Below, piece by piece: positions 19,488-59,577 of a stretch of DNA of 64,000 nt. Numbering within the stretch: position 1 is the first letter of the stretch; the number at the start of each line of letters is the position of its first letter. Below the pieces are notes generated by a model that was given only the letters and a program-made list of their open reading frames with translations, was not told the origin of the DNA and did no database searches. The position numbers and the translations under genes were made by a program. Source of the DNA: Terriglobia bacterium (GTDB lineage Bacteria; Acidobacteriota; Terriglobia; Bryobacterales; UBA6623); the NCBI GenBank assembly GCA_009841225.1, contig VXMF01000055.1, positions 62,001 through 126,000 of the forward strand, read 5' to 3'.

Positions 19488-22400
19488 CTACGGATCCTCC
19501 GGCGCAGCCTGTAGCTCGACCTGCATCAGCACCCACTTGTGCAACGTTGCGTATCCCGCATCCCCTGCCTCGTAGCGCACGCCTCCTTGATGCCCTTCTT
19601 CCTGCCCCGTCTGCACGTTCAGCGGCTTTCTCAGGACCAAGCTGCGCTCGGGATTGGCCAGATCCACTCTGGCCTGGAGCTTGCGATAGTTCTCGAGCAA
19701 CTCGGCGGCCTCGATGTGCCCGGCATCGTCCGGTGGGTTCAGGTACAGCGTGGGCACCCGTCCCGGAACACCGTGGCACGAGATGCAGGCCCGATTGTCG
19801 CGCTCGCTGATCCGGTTCATTTCGGCGAAGACATGGTCTCGGAAATGCAAGATGTCCTCGACGAACATGTCCGACGCATCCAGGCGTCGCCCGCCGTTGA
19901 GATCCTGTGCCTCGATTAGCCTCTGCAATTCCTTGCCATATCGCTCGTCGTCGCTGGCAAGCAGATTCTGAAGGCGCGTGCGGATTACGGCCACCGGTTC
20001 GTTCTCAACATGTGCGCCGATCGCCTTGCGCACTTCGGGATTCCGCCGCAGCGCGGGCGAGGCCGCCAGCTTGGCGGCAAGTGCGCGGGTCTCTTCCGAG
20101 GATTCCGACGAAAACCAGCGCACGAACATCTCGACTACCTGACGCTTGGCTGCCGCGATCGGGTCGATTACTTCGGTCCCGCTGTCGTCCTTGGTGAACT
20201 GGGACTTCGCTCCCTCCCAAGGCGTCAGCTTGAGGTAGTCCAATCCGAATTTGAATTCCGGCTCGGCCTCCGGGTTGGTCCCCAGCATCCTCACCGTCAG
20301 GAGCGCTTGCTCGCCCGCGAGGTCAAAGACCCCCATCCGCATCGGCCCGGTGGAAGTGACTTCCTCGCGATAGTAGTCGGCTTGGTCCAGCACGAGTTCG
20401 CCGTCAAACTCAATGCGGACAATGCCATGGGACGCACCGTGCAGGATCGCCCCGAGCAATTCGTACCTGCCCGGCTGCGGCACCGGCACCGAGAACGAAA
20501 TGTGCGCCCCGACCTTTCCCTCTTCCCAGATCAGAGCATTGTTGTTGCTGGCGACACCGCCTGGAATGGCCAGGTCGGTGGTACGACCGAACGTCAGCTC
20601 GGCCACTTCCAAGTCTTCGGCCTCAACTGCCCCCGCAACCGCCTCGGCCACTGTCTCGCCGCCCTCCCTGAAAGCGAGCATCCACTCGGTGGAATCAAGC
20701 CAGAGCCGCGGATCGGCTGACAGGTGGCTGAACGCTTGCTTGCGATGCAGGCTGCGGTTCTCGCCCAGAATGCGGGCGACCAACGGGGCGTAGGGAGATT
20801 CTTCCAGGGTCGGCCCCTCAGTCGGGGCGGGCTTTCCCAGCAGTACGCTCGCCGGCGTTGCTGTAGCGGCACGGGTTGGACTCAACTCTAGCAGCAGGCG
20901 GTAGAATTCTGCCTCTTCGGCCTCGCTGAGACCATCGAAGTTCCACTTCACCCTGGCCAAGAAGCCCGCCAAGGCATCTGCGTCGTCTTCCCGGTCGTTG
21001 TCCGCGTATAACCGCAGTACTTCCAGCAGTGGTGCCAGGGCACCGCGGCGGGCTGGCAGAGAAAGCTCGCCGGGGTTTGCCAGGGCTCGCGCGGCGATCG
21101 CCACGATGCCTGGATCAGCGGTTTGCAACAAGGACAGAATCGTGTCCTGCAGGGGCTTGTGGGTAACGCCGCGAGCCCCTTCAAGGGCAATCGAGCGCCA
21201 CGGCACGTCTGCCTGAGCCTCGTCCTGATACACAGCCAGCACCGCCTTGCCGAAAAGTTCGGTCGCGCCCGGGGTGCTGTAAGCGAATTGGCCAGGGCTC
21301 TGCTGGTTGGCGCGTTCCATGTAGTGGGACGCGGCCATGGCGGTGAGCCGGCGGTCGAGTAGTCGCCTGCGCTCTGGCTGAGCGGTCTCTCGCAATTCGA
21401 GCAATTCGCGGAACAGCGATGCGAGTTCCGGATATTGCTGCGCCGCGAACTGCTCGCGAGTGATGTTGTTGACCTGGCCGTTGACGATGAACAGCGAAAT
21501 CGTCGAGTAGCGCAGCGCCATGTCGACGTGTGCTTCGGGCTCCTCGCGCAACAGCGCATCGATCCACGCTTGGTTGACGGGCTCGCGCATGGGCGGATTC
21601 CAGACCCACCAGTGCCACGCTGCCTTGAAGGCGTAAGCCCTCACGCCGGGATGGGGGTCGACCATCCCGGCGGTAAGGATGCCCGCCAGTTCAGACAGGT
21701 CAACCTCCACACTACTGCCGGGCAAATGTGCTCGCGTGACCAACGCATGCATGACCGATTGGCGCGTGCGGTCGGTCCCCTTCCGAAAGGCCTCGAAGAG
21801 TTCACTCCAACCGCCACCGTCCAGAAGCAGTTGTCGTAGCGACCAGAACGCGGCTTCGCGGCAGCTCTTGACCGGATCGTCGAAATGCTCGATCAGCGTG
21901 GACACCGCATCGTGCGCCATTGCACCACCGAGAGCTAAGAGTCCGTAGTATCTAACCTGTGGGTAGGGACTGCTCGCCAACTCCTTGAACAATTCCGTGT
22001 GCTCGGGGCTTGCCGCAGCCTGGGCGGCCCGTGCCTTGGCAAGTGACTCTAGGAAACCGTCCTCAGGGGCCAGTGCAAACTCGTGCTTGGCGTCAGCCTC
22101 GGGGGCGGGATGGAGACGGCTCAGGGCCCTGATGACATATGCGCTGGTAACGAATCCCGTCGCAGCCGCTGCATTCCACAGTCCGTACGGGTACTGGTTC
22201 TCCAGAAGCCATCGCACACCCCGGCCGACCACAGGATCCTCGGCCGTATAGCCGGCGGCCTCGAGCGCTATCAATGCCACCGCCGTGGCGGCGGGATAGC
22301 TGTGGTCTTCAGGACGCAGCCATTCGCCGTTCTCGCCAGCCTTGCCGGGCTCGAAGCCCCAGCCCCCGTCCTCCCGCTGGAGGGCGAGGATCCGGCCCAG

Positions 22401-24281
22401 ATCGGTGGCTGCCCTGGCTCGCAGGTCGGCATCCAACTTCTCCGCCTCCGCAATCCGACGCGGTGAGTTGGTCAGCTTGCGTACCTGCTCGACATAGTCG
22501 GCCGGCCAGATGCGGTGCACGAACTCGACTCGGTGGCCATAGTCGTCGGTGACCCGGATATCGTCCTCGGTGGCGAGAATCTTCCTCCCTTTCTCTTCGA
22601 TACCGAAGAAGTAGCGCGGCTCGCCGGTCACGCGCCACGCGCGCTCCAAGACCTCGGCCCCAAACTTGAAGACCACGTTGGGCCCGAAGTTCGAGCCTCG
22701 CCCTGCCGCATTGATGCCTTTCGGATCGGCAGTCTGGAGCACATAGTTCGCGGTGCGCTGCTGCCACTGCGCATGCACCCGCTTGGGGTTGTGGGTGCGC
22801 TCGTGCAAGACGATGTTGCGCCCGGCAACTCGGGTGCCGGCCGGCCCGTCACCCAGATCGTTCGGCGCGACGCTGGTATTGACCGCCGCATCCTTGAGTT
22901 CGTTGGTCAGGCGGAGCGACTCGTACATCGTGTTGACCAAGCGCCGGTAGTTTTGCTCGACCCCGTGCGGGCCGTACCCGTTGCGAAACGCATCCGCCAC
23001 ACCCCAGACGCCGCTCTGGGTGTGGCAGCTCATGCAGTTCTCGCCAAACAGCGCTGTCGCATCGCGCACTCGGCGGTGTAGCGCTATGTTGCGTGGGCGG
23101 TGGATGAGCCAAGCATCGATCTCGGCAAGGTGGTAGTACACACCCTGTTGCACGGCCTCGACCGGATCGGAATACGGTGCCGGGTCGAAAACGCGCACCT
23201 GCAGCTCGTAGTGCGGCTGGTTTGCCTCCACGCGCAGGTAATAAGTCTGTCCCGGCTCAAGCTGGCGGGTCACGAATGTCCGAAATGAGCGATCTTGCTG
23301 GTGCGCCCGCTCGTTGATCGCCCGGCCCTCTTCGTACGTGTAGACGGGCACCGGGCCATCGATGACCGTGGCGGACGGGTGCACGTACGGAATGGGATTG
23401 AAGTTGGAGAAGTCGCGGCTATTGGGTACGTCGCGCTCGCGCAGCTCCTCCGCGCTCGGACGGCCCTGCTTGTAGAAGCGAATCCGAGCGCTGACTACGG
23501 GCTCGACGATCTGGAGGTTGGCGCTGAGGTACTTGGGGGTGGTTCCGTTGTAGTCGATGCGGTACCAGTCATCGGGGGTGTTGCCGGTGCGGGTGTTGTT
23601 GTAGTACTCGACATCATCGGCACCGCCGACGACGTACACAGTCCCAGTCTCGTCCGCCTCGCTGAGCCGAAGCAGCGTGGCCTGTTCGGGTGCGTTGTTC
23701 GGTTCCGCTTCCAAGATCAAGGACTCCGACGAGAGGGCGGATATCGGCCGGATCGCGATCGCCAAAGCGACACTATCCACGGCAGGAGTGACGGTTGGTA
23801 GCGGCGTAGCCAGCGGTGCCAGGCCCGTATCGTGCGGGATTGGCCCAAGGGGTTGCTCGCGATCCAGCATGGGCTCGATGCGGATCGAATATCTGCCCGA
23901 GACCGGGGCGCGATAGACCAAATGTAGGTCGGGATCAAGGGCATGCAGCACCTTGGACCAACTTGTAGTGGCGATAACGCCGGAATCGGCCCGATCGCCC
24001 GTGAAACCGGAATCTGGCAGATCCGGGCCGGACCAATGGACTTCGATCCGAGCGTTCGGCGGCAGGACGGACGGCTCTACCAGTTGCAGCGACACGTCGA
24101 ATGCCCTTCCCGCCTCGAGGGTCCACTCCTCGCTCCACGGTGGGCCAACGGAGACGGTCCGGGAATAGCCTGAGCCCTCCGTCAGGGATGACGCTGGAGT
24201 CGGGGCAAGCAACGGCGGGACCGCGCACACAAGTAGCGGCAGCCCCCAGCGAAGAAACGGATTGAATAGAGTACGGTCCAC
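19488..24281 (-). CDS. Giant dihaem protein with cyclase-like, HEAT-like and carbohydrate-binding-like regions
   Basis: About 1597 residues from a GTG at 24281; a TTG at 24338 would add 19. The GTG is preferred because a hydrophobic export signal (FLRWGLPLLVCAVPPLL) follows and a purine-rich GAGGCGGAAGG precedes it. Order: beta-rich N-terminal region including a PPC-like EAEPNNAPEQA segment (near 190), haem motif CMSCH near 416, a terpenoid-cyclase/prenyltransferase-like alpha-alpha repeat at about 630-730 (LQREDGGWGFEP, WLLENQYPYGLWN), HEAT-like helices at about 770-1210, a beta-sandwich resembling a carbohydrate-binding module (GRYELLGAILHG, VRIEFDGELVLDQ), and a C-terminal cytochrome with CISCH near 1499. 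I know no named family for the whole. Likely periplasmic or surface located. Confidence 0.75.
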   Translation of the reverse strand: MDRTLFNPFLRWGLPLLVCAVPPLLAPTPASSLTEGSGYSRTVSVGPPWSEEWTLEAGRAFDVSLQLVEPSVLPPNARIEVHWSGPDLPDSGFTGDRADSGVIATTSWSKVLHALDPDLHLVYRAPVSGRYSIRIEPMLDREQPLGPIPHDTGLAPLATPLPTVTPAVDSVALAIAIRPISALSSESLILEAEPNNAPEQATLLRLSEADETGTVYVVGGADDVEYYNNTRTGNTPDDWYRIDYNGTTPKYLSANLQIVEPVVSARIRFYKQGRPSAEELRERDVPNSRDFSNFNPIPYVHPSATVIDGPVPVYTYEEGRAINERAHQQDRSFRTFVTRQLEPGQTYYLRVEANQPHYELQVRVFDPAPYSDPVEAVQQGVYYHLAEIDAWLIHRPRNIALHRRVRDATALFGENCMSCHTQSGVWGVADAFRNGYGPHGVEQNYRRLVNTMYESLRLTNELKDAAVNTSVAPNDLGDGPAGTRVAGRNIVLHERTHNPKRVHAQWQQRTANYVLQTADPKGINAAGRGSNFGPNVVFKFGAEVLERAWRVTGEPRYFFGIEEKGRKILATEDDIRVTDDYGHRVEFVHRIWPADYVEQVRKLTNSPRRIAEAEKLDADLRARAATDLGRILALQREDGGWGFEPGKAGENGEWLRPEDHSYPAATAVALIALEAAGYTAEDPVVGRGVRWLLENQYPYGLWNAAAATGFVTSAYVIRALSRLHPAPEADAKHEFALAPEDGFLESLAKARAAQAAASPEHTELFKELASSPYPQVRYYGLLALGGAMAHDAVSTLIEHFDDPVKSCREAAFWSLRQLLLDGGGWSELFEAFRKGTDRTRQSVMHALVTRAHLPGSSVEVDLSELAGILTAGMVDPHPGVRAYAFKAAWHWWVWNPPMREPVNQAWIDALLREEPEAHVDMALRYSTISLFIVNGQVNNITREQFAAQQYPELASLFRELLELRETAQPERRRLLDRRLTAMAASHYMERANQQSPGQFAYSTPGATELFGKAVLAVYQDEAQADVPWRSIALEGARGVTHKPLQDTILSLLQTADPGIVAIAARALANPGELSLPARRGALAPLLEVLRLYADNDREDDADALAGFLARVKWNFDGLSEAEEAEFYRLLLELSPTRAATATPASVLLGKPAPTEGPTLEESPYAPLVARILGENRSLHRKQAFSHLSADPRLWLDSTEWMLAFREGGETVAEAVAGAVEAEDLEVAELTFGRTTDLAIPGGVASNNNALIWEEGKVGAHISFSVPVPQPGRYELLGAILHGASHGIVRIEFDGELVLDQADYYREEVTSTGPMRMGVFDLAGEQALLTVRMLGTNPEAEPEFKFGLDYLKLTPWEGAKSQFTKDDSGTEVIDPIAAAKRQVVEMFVRWFSSESSEETRALAAKLAASPALRRNPEVRKAIGAHVENEPVAVIRTRLQNLLASDDERYGKELQRLIEAQDLNGGRRLDASDMFVEDILHFRDHVFAEMNRISERDNRACISCHGVPGRVPTLYLNPPDDAGHIEAAELLENYRKLQARVDLANPERSLVLRKPLNVQTGQEEGHQGGVRYEAGDAGYATLHKWVLMQVELQAAPEDP

Positions 24282-24730
24282 GGCCTTCCGCCTCAATACT
24301 ATCGAAGTCCCGCTCTCGGAAGAGCAGTCGTCGCACAATCACCGCACGGTGGTGTATACGGAAGAGTCTGGGGACGAGGACCAGACAGGACCTGAAGGTT
24401 GGGGCTGCCGAGGGCGCGGGTGCGCAACCGTAACCTGGTTTCTGTCTAGCCTCGATAGTAAGAGCGCCCACTGGTGCCGAAGGAGAATTGATCGCTATCT
24501 AGTGGCAGAATCCATCACCAGACTACGGAGCTCAAACGCACGGCTCCAGCTAGCGATCGGCCGATGACCAGACTCTTGTCTTACAGAAATTCCGCTTAAA
24601 CTTTCATTTGGACGGTATCAAAACTTTCATTTGGCCGCACTTTGGGGTTGCGATCAGACGGTGATTGGAACGCGATTCTACCGATGACCGAGCGGTCCGC
24701 TCATGCGATCGATATGCCACACTAACCGTC
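24282..24730. other. Intergenic region between divergent genes, contains a 23-bp-period repeat
   Basis: 449 bases upstream of both the giant dihaem gene and the TIM-barrel gene. Promoters in both directions are expected but none is clear. The only structured element is the repeat pair at 24598-24634, described separately. No gene is recognised. Confidence 0.4.
24598..24634 (-). repeat. Pair of 14-bp direct repeats with 23-bp period
   Basis: CCAAATGAAAGTTT (minus strand) occurs perfectly at 24611-24598 and 24634-24621, exactly 23 bases apart. Each copy holds an ATG. The period and the CAAATG core match the tandem array in front of the DUF4143 ATPase gene near 58.2 kb, but no such gene lies here. 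Confidence 0.7.
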
Positions 24731-25786
24731 ATGGGCGATACTCGCAGGGATTTCCTCCGTTCGAGCTTGGCACTAGCGAGCGTGTCCCATGTGGCAGCTG
24801 TCACGACCGAGCCAAGGCACGGCATGGGAATCGGCACCGCCGCGTACATGCAGCGCGGGCGTGCAGATCAGAAGGCAGAGCGCGCCCAACGCTTCACGGA
24901 GACTTTGCGCTTTTTGGAGCATTGCAAGAGCGTGGGCGCGGCTGGGATCCAAGCTCCCCTGACCGAGCTCAGCGATGAGTACGCGGGACGGGTGCGTGCC
25001 AAGGCCGAAGACTACGGCATGTACGTGGAGGTCTCCGCCCGCTTGCCCAAGAACGATTCCGATGAGCTGGATGTCTTCGAGCGGACCGTTCGCGCGACCG
25101 AGGCTGCGGGCGGTAGGGTGATTCGCACGGTGATGCTGGGCGGGCGTCGGTACGAGACCTTCAAGACACTCGAGGATTGGAAGGAGTTTGTTCGAGTGAG
25201 CTGGCGATCCCTGAGCCGTGCCGAGCCGATCCTGCGCCGCCACAAGGTGCGGCTCGCCCTTGAGAACCACAAGGACTGGCGCATCGACGAGATGCTGAAG
25301 ATCCTCGAGCGCATCGAGAGCGAGTGGGTGGGCGTCACTATTGACACGGGCAACAACATGTCGTTGCTGGAGGATCCTCTCGATACGGTCCGGGCATTCG
25401 CTCCGTACGCCGCGTCCGTGCATCTGAAGGACATGGGTGTCGAGGCCTACGAAGACGGCTTCCTGCTCGCCGAAGTTCCGTTCGGAACCGGTTGCCTTGA
25501 CATGGCTGCAGTGGTTGAGACGATTCGATCAGCCCGCCCGGAGGTGCGCTTCACGCTGGAAATGATCACGCGCGACCCACTGAAAATACCCTGTCTCCGC
25601 GAGCACTACTGGATCACGATGGGCCGAGTTCCCGGAGCGGACCTCGCGGCGTCGCTCTCCGCCGTCCAAAGCCATGGCAGACCCCTGCCGCTGATCGATC
25701 AACTCGCCGAGGAGGAGCGCTTCAAGATCGAGGAGGACAACAACCGAGCCTGCCTGGAATACGCTAGGGCGAAGCTCGAACTGTAA
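24731..25786 (+). CDS. Tat-exported sugar isomerase/epimerase-like TIM barrel
   Basis: 351 residues from the ATG at 24731, giving a twin-arginine signal (GDTRRDFLRSSLALASVSHV). The body is the AP-endonuclease-2 / xylose-isomerase-like barrel: RLALENHKDW, WVGVTIDTGNN, ASVHLKDMGVE and RFTLEMITRDP carry the Glu, Asp, His and Glu expected to bind a divalent metal. Such proteins isomerise or epimerise sugars, inositols or hydroxy acids. Convergent with a Gfo/Idh/MocA gene 90 bases away, a frequent partner family in inositol and sugar catabolism, although here the two are not in one operon. Export of both is typical of Acidobacteriota and Planctomycetota sets. Confidence 0.85.
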   Translation: MGDTRRDFLRSSLALASVSHVAAVTTEPRHGMGIGTAAYMQRGRADQKAERAQRFTETLRFLEHCKSVGAAGIQAPLTELSDEYAGRVRAKAEDYGMYVEVSARLPKNDSDELDVFERTVRATEAAGGRVIRTVMLGGRRYETFKTLEDWKEFVRVSWRSLSRAEPILRRHKVRLALENHKDWRIDEMLKILERIESEWVGVTIDTGNNMSLLEDPLDTVRAFAPYAASVHLKDMGVEAYEDGFLLAEVPFGTGCLDMAAVVETIRSARPEVRFTLEMITRDPLKIPCLREHYWITMGRVPGADLAASLSAVQSHGRPLPLIDQLAEEERFKIEEDNNRACLEYARAKLEL

Positions 25787-57943: not shown

Positions 57944-58314
57944 GACGGCAGGCGTGAGGGCTGTGACTCCCTCCCTGAGGTGTGCTTGGCTGCATCGGGC
58001 GCCGCGATTGGAGCGGCTCGATATCTAGCCACTTCGATACCGGGTGGCGTGGCCGCACAGGAAGCATGTAACGGCTTCCTGCGACCCAATGCGACTCCAC
58101 CCAGCCACATGGAGAGAAACGCCACACGGACGCCGGCATGCCAGCAGCGCACCGTCCAAACCTCTCGGACCGCGAGCTCGGCGCGCATCCCAGCAACGCC
58201 GGCATTCATCTATAGCCGACAGATAGACGCTCATCTAATCGGCAAATGGACGCTACTCTAATTAGCAAATGGACGCTACTCTAATTAGCAAATGGACGCT
58301 ACAATAACAAGCAG
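57944..58314. other. Intergenic region ending in the 23-bp repeat array
   Basis: 371 bases. The first 280 show no gene, RNA or promoter that I can support. The remainder is the tandem repeat (58222 onward) described separately, noticeably AT-richer than what precedes it. Confidence 0.4.
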
Positions 58315-58324
58315 ATGGACGCAG
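58222..58324 (+). repeat. Four 23-bp tandem repeats plus partial fifth containing the downstream start codon
   Basis: Units at 58222-58244, 58245-58267, 58268-58290, 58291-58313 and a partial from 58314. Units 2 and 3 are identical; unit 1 is degraded and unit 4 diverges in its last third. The core AAATGGACGC recurs every 23 bases, with ATGs at 58246, 58269, 58292 and 58315. The last is the start codon of the DUF4143 ATPase gene. As 23 is not a multiple of three, the upstream ATGs lie in rotating frames and open very short peptides (for example MDATLISKWTLL). Confidence 0.9.
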
Positions 58325-59577
58325 CTACCCACGGGTCGGGTGAAATCTACTATCCGCGATTGCTACTGCCCTCGATACAGACAGCGCTGCTCGACACGCG
58401 CGTGGTCTGCGTGCTCGGCCCGCGCCGGTGCGGCAAGACAACACTGGTCCGCCGACTGGATCCGAACCGCCCGTACATCGATCTGGACGATAGCGAATAC
58501 TACCGGGTGGCGCGGGAAGACCCGGCAGGCTTCGTTGCAAGCCTTCCGGACACTGCCACGTTGGATGAAGTCCAGAGGGTGCCGGCGTTGCTGTCGGCGA
58601 TCAAGGTTGCAGTGGACCGCGACAGGCGACCAGGCAGGTTCGTGCTGGCAGGCTCAGCCAACCTCGTGCTAGCTCGGCAGGCCACCGATTCCCTTGCGGG
58701 CCGAATCGAAACTGTCCTCCTGCAGCCGCTGACCGAAGCCGAGAAGGAAAGGCGCGAGGGTGCGTTCCTGTCCGCACTGCTAGCCAATGGCTTGCGGCCA
58801 TCGATACAAGCCGGAAGCGTATCGGCCATCGAAGGACTGCCTCGAAGGCTTGTGGCGGGCGGTTTTCCCGAGCCGGTCCCAAGGAACCCATCACGCGCCA
58901 GACAGTGGCATCGCCAGTACTCCGCGAGCATCATCGAAAGGGATGTCCGCGACATGGCAGAAGTCCGCATGGCTGGCCGACTCAAGCGATTCGTGGAGAT
59001 GCTCGCTGTGCGCACCGCGACGCTCGTGAACACCAGCAACATAGCTTCCGACATTGGGCTTAGTCGAGATACTGTGAACCACTACCTCGAAGTCCTCGAG
59101 CGGCTGTTTGTGATCAGGCGGCTCCCTGCCTGGCATTCCAATGAGTGGAGGCGACTCGTGAAGTCGCCAAAGCTCCATTTTGTCGACACTGGCTTAGCTG
59201 CGGCTCTAGCTCGCCGTAGCACGTCCGACTGGCTTGCGAGGCGTACCGAGATGGGCCGTCTTCTTGAATCATTCGTTGTCCAGCAGGTGATTGCACAGAG
59301 TGCGTGGACAGACCCAGACCTCCAGTTCTGGCACTACCGCGACAAAGACAAGGTCGAAGTCGACCTAGTGGTGACCCGGGGGGCGAGCACGTGGGGCATC
59401 GAAGTGAAGTCGTCGGCCTCTGTCAGTTCCAGCGATGGGCAGGGCTTGGCACGACTCGCGGCTCGTTGCGGCGACAACTTCGAATCCGGAGTCATTCTCT
59501 ACGCCGGCAGCAGCCTCCTACCAACCCGAGACCCACGTGTGCTAGCGGTGCCGCTGAGCGAACTCTGGAACCGCTAG
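58315..59577 (+). CDS. AAA-type ATPase with DUF4143 domain
   Basis: 420 residues. Walker A GPRRCGKTT (35-43), Walker B-like DTATLDEVQRVP (Asp84-Glu85), sensor-like VLAGSANLVLARQATDSLAG, a winged-helix middle (NTSNIASDIGLSRDTVNHYL), DUF4143 and a C-terminal PD-(D/E)XK-like core (DKVEVDLVVTRG, WGIEVKSSASV). The family is abundant and variably present in bacteria; its biological role is not established. The ATG lies inside the fifth unit of the upstream tandem repeat, leaving no room for a normal Shine-Dalgarno. Neighbours are unrelated, so it is probably an acquired single gene. Confidence 0.85.
   Translation: MDAATHGSGEIYYPRLLLPSIQTALLDTRVVCVLGPRRCGKTTLVRRLDPNRPYIDLDDSEYYRVAREDPAGFVASLPDTATLDEVQRVPALLSAIKVAVDRDRRPGRFVLAGSANLVLARQATDSLAGRIETVLLQPLTEAEKERREGAFLSALLANGLRPSIQAGSVSAIEGLPRRLVAGGFPEPVPRNPSRARQWHRQYSASIIERDVRDMAEVRMAGRLKRFVEMLAVRTATLVNTSNIASDIGLSRDTVNHYLEVLERLFVIRRLPAWHSNEWRRLVKSPKLHFVDTGLAAALARRSTSDWLARRTEMGRLLESFVVQQVIAQSAWTDPDLQFWHYRDKDKVEVDLVVTRGASTWGIEVKSSASVSSSDGQGLARLAARCGDNFESGVILYAGSSLLPTRDPRVLAVPLSELWNR

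Follow-up and report, generated by a model that had tools for sequence, protein, structure and literature searches.

The window, the whole stretch of 64,000 nucleotides analysed here, contains two similar repeat arrays with a period of 23 bp (Table 1). The array at 24.6 kb lies between a large SQHop_cyclase_C/HEAT gene and a gene for a TIM-barrel protein (AP_endonuc_2), and the array at 58.2 kb runs into an intact gene for an AAA_14-DUF4143 ATPase.

Table 1. Positions of the two arrays, their genes and the genes next to the 24.6-kb array in the window
Feature	Position	Strand	Remarks
Large SQHop_cyclase_C/HEAT gene, left neighbour	19488..24338	-	left of the array in 5/5 array-keeping relatives, 88-95% identity
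Relict array unit 1, TTTCATTTGGACG	24602..24614	+	originally predicted repeat copy, read on the plus strand
Relict array unit 2, TTTCATTTGGCCG	24625..24637	+	23 bp after unit 1
Relict array unit 3, TTGCGATCAGACG, start-proximal	24648..24660	+	23 bp after unit 2; third base G
Probable relict first ATPase codons, GTG ATT GGA ACG CGA TTC TAC CGA TGA (V I G T R F Y R stop)	24661..24687	+	
TIM-barrel (AP_endonuc_2) gene, right neighbour	24665..25786	+	probable start ATG near 24731
Intact 23-bp array, 4.2 copies	58226..58322	+	last copy holds the start codon
Intact AAA_14-DUF4143 ATPase, PADLOC PDC-S01	58315..59577	+	array-bearing clade

The repeat pair at 24.6 kb

As the original prediction had it, the minus strand carries CCAAATGAAAGTTT twice (24598-24611 and 24621-24634), with a period of exactly 23 bp. 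A search with up to two mismatches gave 2 matches in the window, against a mean of 0.06 and a maximum of 1 in 100 shuffles. Repeat families of two copies are often due to chance, and CAAATG by itself shows no enrichment across the window (15 observed, 20.6 expected). The copies, however, are identical at 14 of 14 bases, and the exact pair CAAATG-N17-CAAATG has three matches in the whole genome (5.74 Mb), one being the pair at 24.6 kb and the other two lying in the 58.2-kb array, with none for the reversed control. Since the spaced pair is confined to two arrays genome-wide, the possibility that such pairs occur at chance frequency, named beforehand as the outcome that would speak against the prediction, does not hold. 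The repeats are also conserved in register in five other species, and a chance repeat or an unrelated family of small repeats is hardly credible as an explanation. The exact dimer gave 0 matches in viral_contigs.

The likeness to the 58.2-kb array, first noticed through the CAAATG core of the minus strand, is better seen on the plus strand, where both arrays share CAWWTGGACGNTA and a period of 23, and a third, degenerate unit in register had been missed. This start-proximal unit reads TTGCGAT; its third base is G, a position that is mostly A in intact genes, where a -10-like TTACAAT is found. Taking as an array at least two TTNCAATYRGMCG-like cores at 22 or 23 bp on the coding strand, the 24.6-kb locus has one, with cores at 24602, 24625 and 24648, and the A that is usual, though not universal, at the third base of the last core is absent. 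No match to the ATPase was obtained at 24.6 kb by tblastn or HMM, nor is there an open frame with AAA_14 and DUF4143, which bears out the earlier claim that no ATPase gene adjoins the repeat.

A start-site array in one clade of AAA_14-DUF4143 ATPases

Homologous arrays run straight into intact AAA_14-DUF4143 ATPases in one further member of the genus (G004) and in a member of the same class (G296). Between these two ATPases tblastn gives an identity of 66.5%, and the alignment 69%. As at 58.2 kb, the second G296 ATPase has its start codon within a CAAATGGACGGT unit. Four proteins were then used as the sole queries against genome_contigs, so that the array played no part in the choice; at least 509 of at least 578 candidate stretches listed encode a relative. 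The best 80 of these at least 509 relatives were kept; their identities are 49-73%, and their record titles span many phyla. Two were dropped because they had no frame of 380 residues and one because it had no upstream DNA, leaving 77 with at least 100 bp upstream. Among these 77, drawn from the best 80 listed, upstream chains at 22 or 23 bp comprised at least three cores in 72 and two cores in 4, and were absent in 1 (L146). None of 1540 mononucleotide shuffles, a control that covers chains of at least three, reached such a chain. When the spacing was left unconstrained, 199 of 229 gaps between neighbouring cores were 22 or 23. The array-bearing genomes carry labels from Gemmatimonadetes to Gammaproteobacteria.

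The core of the array is the 13-bp TTNCAATYRGMCG, present as direct repeats, usually 3-6, at 22 or 23 bp. With start codons chosen near the expected place, the last unit was start-proximal in 54 of the 73 genes with at least two units and not in the other 19, and in 52 of the 54 the start codon lies 0, 1 or 2 nt past the last core. In 47 of these 54 start-proximal last units the third base is A; among earlier units the count is 30 of 157 (p = 3e-19).

A looser pattern search in 300 relatives gave matches in 72 genomes compared with 21 for the reversed control, so that most matches outside the genus are near chance. Two of the five stretches from outside the genus obtained in this way, both in G296, are the ATPase arrays, and no ATPase was seen by eye among the reading frames of G140, G217 and G224 or of G010:C56, which is in the genus. 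A measure of periodicity was too blunt, as it missed the G004 array as well. No description of the array was found in the open-licence literature searched.

The array is specific to one clade of AAA_14-DUF4143 ATPases. An array common to all DUF4143 genes was considered and rejected, as 17 of the 18 such genes of this genome are without it and the 23-bp array stands only before the 58.2-kb gene. The genome (G000, 5.7 Mb) also has 7 AbiEii matches. In 6 of the 17 other DUF4143 genes (L010, L015, L017, L020, L021 and L022), inverted repeats are found at or near the first possible start codon (p ≤ 0.05 against shuffles), that of L017 being perfect with 15-bp arms; DUF4143 genes may thus often carry start-site operators of their own. 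The ATPases of L108 and L110 have a 27-residue insertion with spaced Trp after Walker A (LTWRGSHMTWRGNRLSWR in G004), which is absent from the window protein.

An insertion sequence or transposon with arrays at both ends was likewise rejected: of 74 homologues whose sequence extends 240 bp past the stop codon, 5 have a downstream chain of at least three at a loose threshold, and one of the 5 chains precedes a second ATPase. A second array in the same direction with no obvious second ATPase follows the ATPase in L129 and L137 (31 bp past the stop; two units at a stricter threshold in L137), in L131 (about 105-127 bp after the stop) and in L141 (+2205 from the ATPase start). Recombination between arrays flanking an ATPase would remove the gene and leave an array.

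The ATPases of the window, of G004 and one of those of G296 match the PADLOC model of the phage-defence candidate PDC-S01 (PDLC04790; E values of 2.1e-145, 2.7e-153 and 2.6e-155, respectively). Of the remaining 17 DUF4143 proteins in the genome, ten were run against PADLOC, and all ten also match PDC-S01. The predicted structure of the 58.2-kb ATPase has a mean pLDDT of 89.4 and a pTM of 0.90, and its closest matches are the archaeal ATPases 2qen (Z 14.6, rmsd 4.0, 251 residues aligned) and 2fna (14.2, 4.2, 252), followed by NLR and CED-4 proteins. The winged-helix part has its best matches among STAND/NOD proteins, in which this domain need not bind DNA. Toward the C terminus the protein has the residues EVD...EVK, which we take to be the PD-(D/E)XK pattern. 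In the available part of the source, PDC-S01 is described as an ATPase fused to a PD-(D/E)-X-K member and as the fourth most common defence across prokaryotes, with validation pending for most such core-defensome candidates (PMC12988326). The same part makes no mention of an upstream array, and no paper characterising PDC-S01 was found in the open-licence literature searched.

The 24.6-kb locus in related species

When 150 genomes were searched for the dimer at up to three mismatches, six were positive, namely this genome and five more of the 11 members of a single genus, and the reversed control gave 0. The array is homologous and in register in this genome, G001, G003, G005, G006 and G010. 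Comparison with close relatives, which the original prediction had proposed as a check, thus finds the same locus in six species with no intact ATPase in any of these array-keeping members. To the right of the array, the TIM-barrel orthologue is present in G005, G010, G003 and G006; the array contig of G001 stops after a further 1.3 kb, and its TIM-barrel gene begins another contig.

The locus differs among the six in its accessory genes. AbiEi is found left of the array in G010, G001, G003 and G006. In G010, AbiEi and a truncated AbiEii lie between the flanking genes; no match to AbiEii was obtained on the array contigs of G001, G003 and G006. A Uma2 gene lies between the flanking genes in G003 and, judged by near-identical sequence, in G006. 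No accessory gene of AbiE or Uma2 type is present at the locus in this genome or in G005. The TIM-barrel protein is 92% identical to that of this genome in G005, 89% in G010 and 81-83% in G003, G001 and G006, which suggests that this genome and G005 are sisters with G010 next. On these pairwise identities, a single loss of AbiE in the common ancestor of this genome and G005 would be the simplest reading.

Behind the array, traces of the ATPase gene are preserved to different extents. The clearest is in G006, where an N-terminal remnant of about 40 residues directly follows the array (profile positions 3-43, iE 2.3e-7). A tblastn match of 53% over 62 residues (E 1.9e-11) was also obtained there; it runs partly over array DNA translated in both sequences, and the profile figure is therefore the cleaner one. 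About 15 alignable codons are kept in G010, G001 and G003 (by eye). In the window, a GTG directly follows core 3 and the 8 readable codons resemble the start of the G004 gene, too few for significance on their own. Their counterparts in the alignment are V P G T H F Y P R S in the intact gene of G004 and the relicts in G010, G001, G003, G006 and G005; 19 of 24 bases are shared with G010 (counted by eye). The assignment of this relict rests on a chain leading from this genome to G010, from there to the G006 remnant and on to the intact gene of G004.

Retention of an array after loss of its gene is directly observed at a different site. The contig G005:C6 holds the site orthologous to that of the window's 58.2-kb ATPase, with flanks 85% identical over 0.74 kb and 93% over 2.3 kb. 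It keeps three array units, in which TACAAT reads TACAAA, and the last 46 codons, and the coding region between them is gone. In a profile search of 20 stretches, ATPase remnants were found only here, in G006 and in L196, besides the intact G004 gene.

Two origins had been put forward for the pair, a family of small repeat elements and the scar of a lost DUF4143-type gene. It is the second that the arrays before intact ATPases, the G006 remnant and the G005 deletion support. We consider it probable (roughly 0.8) that the 24.6-kb pair is the surviving part of the start-site array, a putative promoter and operator in one, of a lost AAA_14-DUF4143 ATPase of PDC-S01 type. Unlike the intact PDC-S01 genes, the locus retains the array and a few codons only, and is their relative by array, not by gene.

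Orphan arrays and the function of the array

A strict search found the array in 22 of 395 genomes of the phylum (26 matches), with 0 for the reversed control. Eleven of the 22 arrays lead into a complete ATPase, in 1 the contig end cuts off an N-terminal match, and 10 have no tblastn match to the ATPase; two of these ten represent one locus in two species. The profile search detected no ATPase remnant at any of the ten. By eye, an apparent ATPase start was seen in L202 and none in the other 9, so that some of these arrays may never have had an ATPase.

Among the phylum arrays, 4 of the 10 orphans have an AbiEii gene within 2.5 kb, compared with 0 of the 12 that have an ATPase or end at a contig boundary (one-sided Fisher 0.029). 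Orphan arrays with AbiEii were noted in G301, G331, G503 and G681 and, at the genus locus, in G010. As described in the accessible portion of PMC7319586, AbiEi binds 23-bp repeats in its own promoter. Given these two observations and the AbiEi gene left of the array in four relatives, a serious rival is that the array is the operator of a neighbouring AbiE type IV toxin-antitoxin module, in which case AbiE and not an ATPase would have been lost from the window. The repeats are, however, direct rather than inverted, and in those four relatives some 200-300 bp separate them from AbiEi; beside the start of AbiEi in G010 there is a separate inverted repeat (by eye); AbiEii is out of reach for all 12 arrays that have an ATPase or are cut by a contig end; and AbiE occurs on either side of the array and in either orientation relative to it. 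In addition, an ATPase remnant follows the array in G006, and the bond between array and ATPase is general. Next to the 24.6-kb array, no match to AbiEi and no inverted 23-bp repeats of the kind that span an AbiEi promoter were found. An AbiE operator is on balance very improbable, and it is a plain guess that AbiE and the orphan arrays share defence islands.

The retention of the array in six species without the gene, and the ten phylum arrays without a detectable ATPase, raise the question whether an orphan array is a live regulatory site, through which the same regulator, perhaps the 58.2-kb ATPase, controls the TIM-barrel gene or others. Among G010, G001, G003 and G006 the array is 81-93% identical, compared with 66-89% for the left flank and 49-88% for the right flank; being somewhat better conserved than its flanks, it might still have a function. 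Further support comes from a distant genus, where an array-led segment of about 130-200 bp is common to three loci whose flanks have no other detected likeness at the array. Between this genome and G005, by contrast, conservation of the right flank is about equal to that of the array (by eye), the genes next to orphan arrays vary from case to case (by eye), and the last unit has no A at its third base, and hence no -10-like base, in any of the six relict arrays. Such a live site is rather unlikely. The segment shared by L197, L198 and L201, 72-79% identical, starts at or just before the array and holds TGTCGCATTTATGTCGCATT-like repeats, while the flanks have no other match at the array; it is perhaps a small mobile or regulatory element.

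For the array in front of an intact gene, the most likely role, judging from its sequence and position, would be that of a self-regulated start-site operator, promoter and operator in one. TTACAAT followed after 6 nt by ATG would form a -10-like element with a leaderless start codon, and TTGCAA of the preceding unit, 18 bp away, is a candidate -35 element. A protein, most simply the ATPase itself, would bind the units cooperatively and repress its own transcription. When array bases were compared with protein columns for joint variation, no clear signature of DNA binding emerged; the best value (p = 6.7e-6) belongs to residue 346, next to the nuclease motif, and comes from 223 columns and 5 features with phylogeny uncorrected. 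Once the gene is lost, the array would be left in that place with no cognate product and would either decay or be kept for another use. The missing -10-like base at 24.6 kb is as expected of a decayed promoter. As the six relicts descend from one ancestor, its loss counts as a single observation, and 7 of the 54 intact genes are also without the A.

A bolder possibility is that the 22/23-bp array serves as a sequence-specific address at which the STAND-like ATPase-nuclease is held inactive. Clearing or copying of the array, as in phage takeover or with incoming DNA, would then release or retarget the nuclease, and orphan arrays would be kept as decoys or antidotes and would not be neutral scars. 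We regard this as unlikely.

Plasmid replication origins have iterons, direct repeats of about 17-22 bp that lie upstream of a gene whose product binds to them. Unlike in iterons, there is no replication gene at the array, and the array overlaps the start codon. A self-regulated operator would have a close parallel in the AbiEi-type promoter, in which, according to the available part of PMC7319586, several 23-bp repeats, four in the case of Rv2827c, are bound by the product of their own operon. Several repeats of this length are common to both, and binding by the own product, known for AbiEi, is predicted here. The AbiEi repeats, however, form inverted pairs, whereas those of the array stand head to tail at 22 or 23 bp, with the start codon usually closing the last unit, and go with a different protein family.

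The 24.6-kb pair itself is a small relict, and the main point is the start-site array of a very common, uncharacterised defence candidate. The array provides a concrete handle on the regulation or DNA recognition of PDC-S01, with a 23-bp probe, a predicted start point and the orphan arrays as natural tests. Because an array can mark the former site of a gene, the loss of such genes becomes readable.
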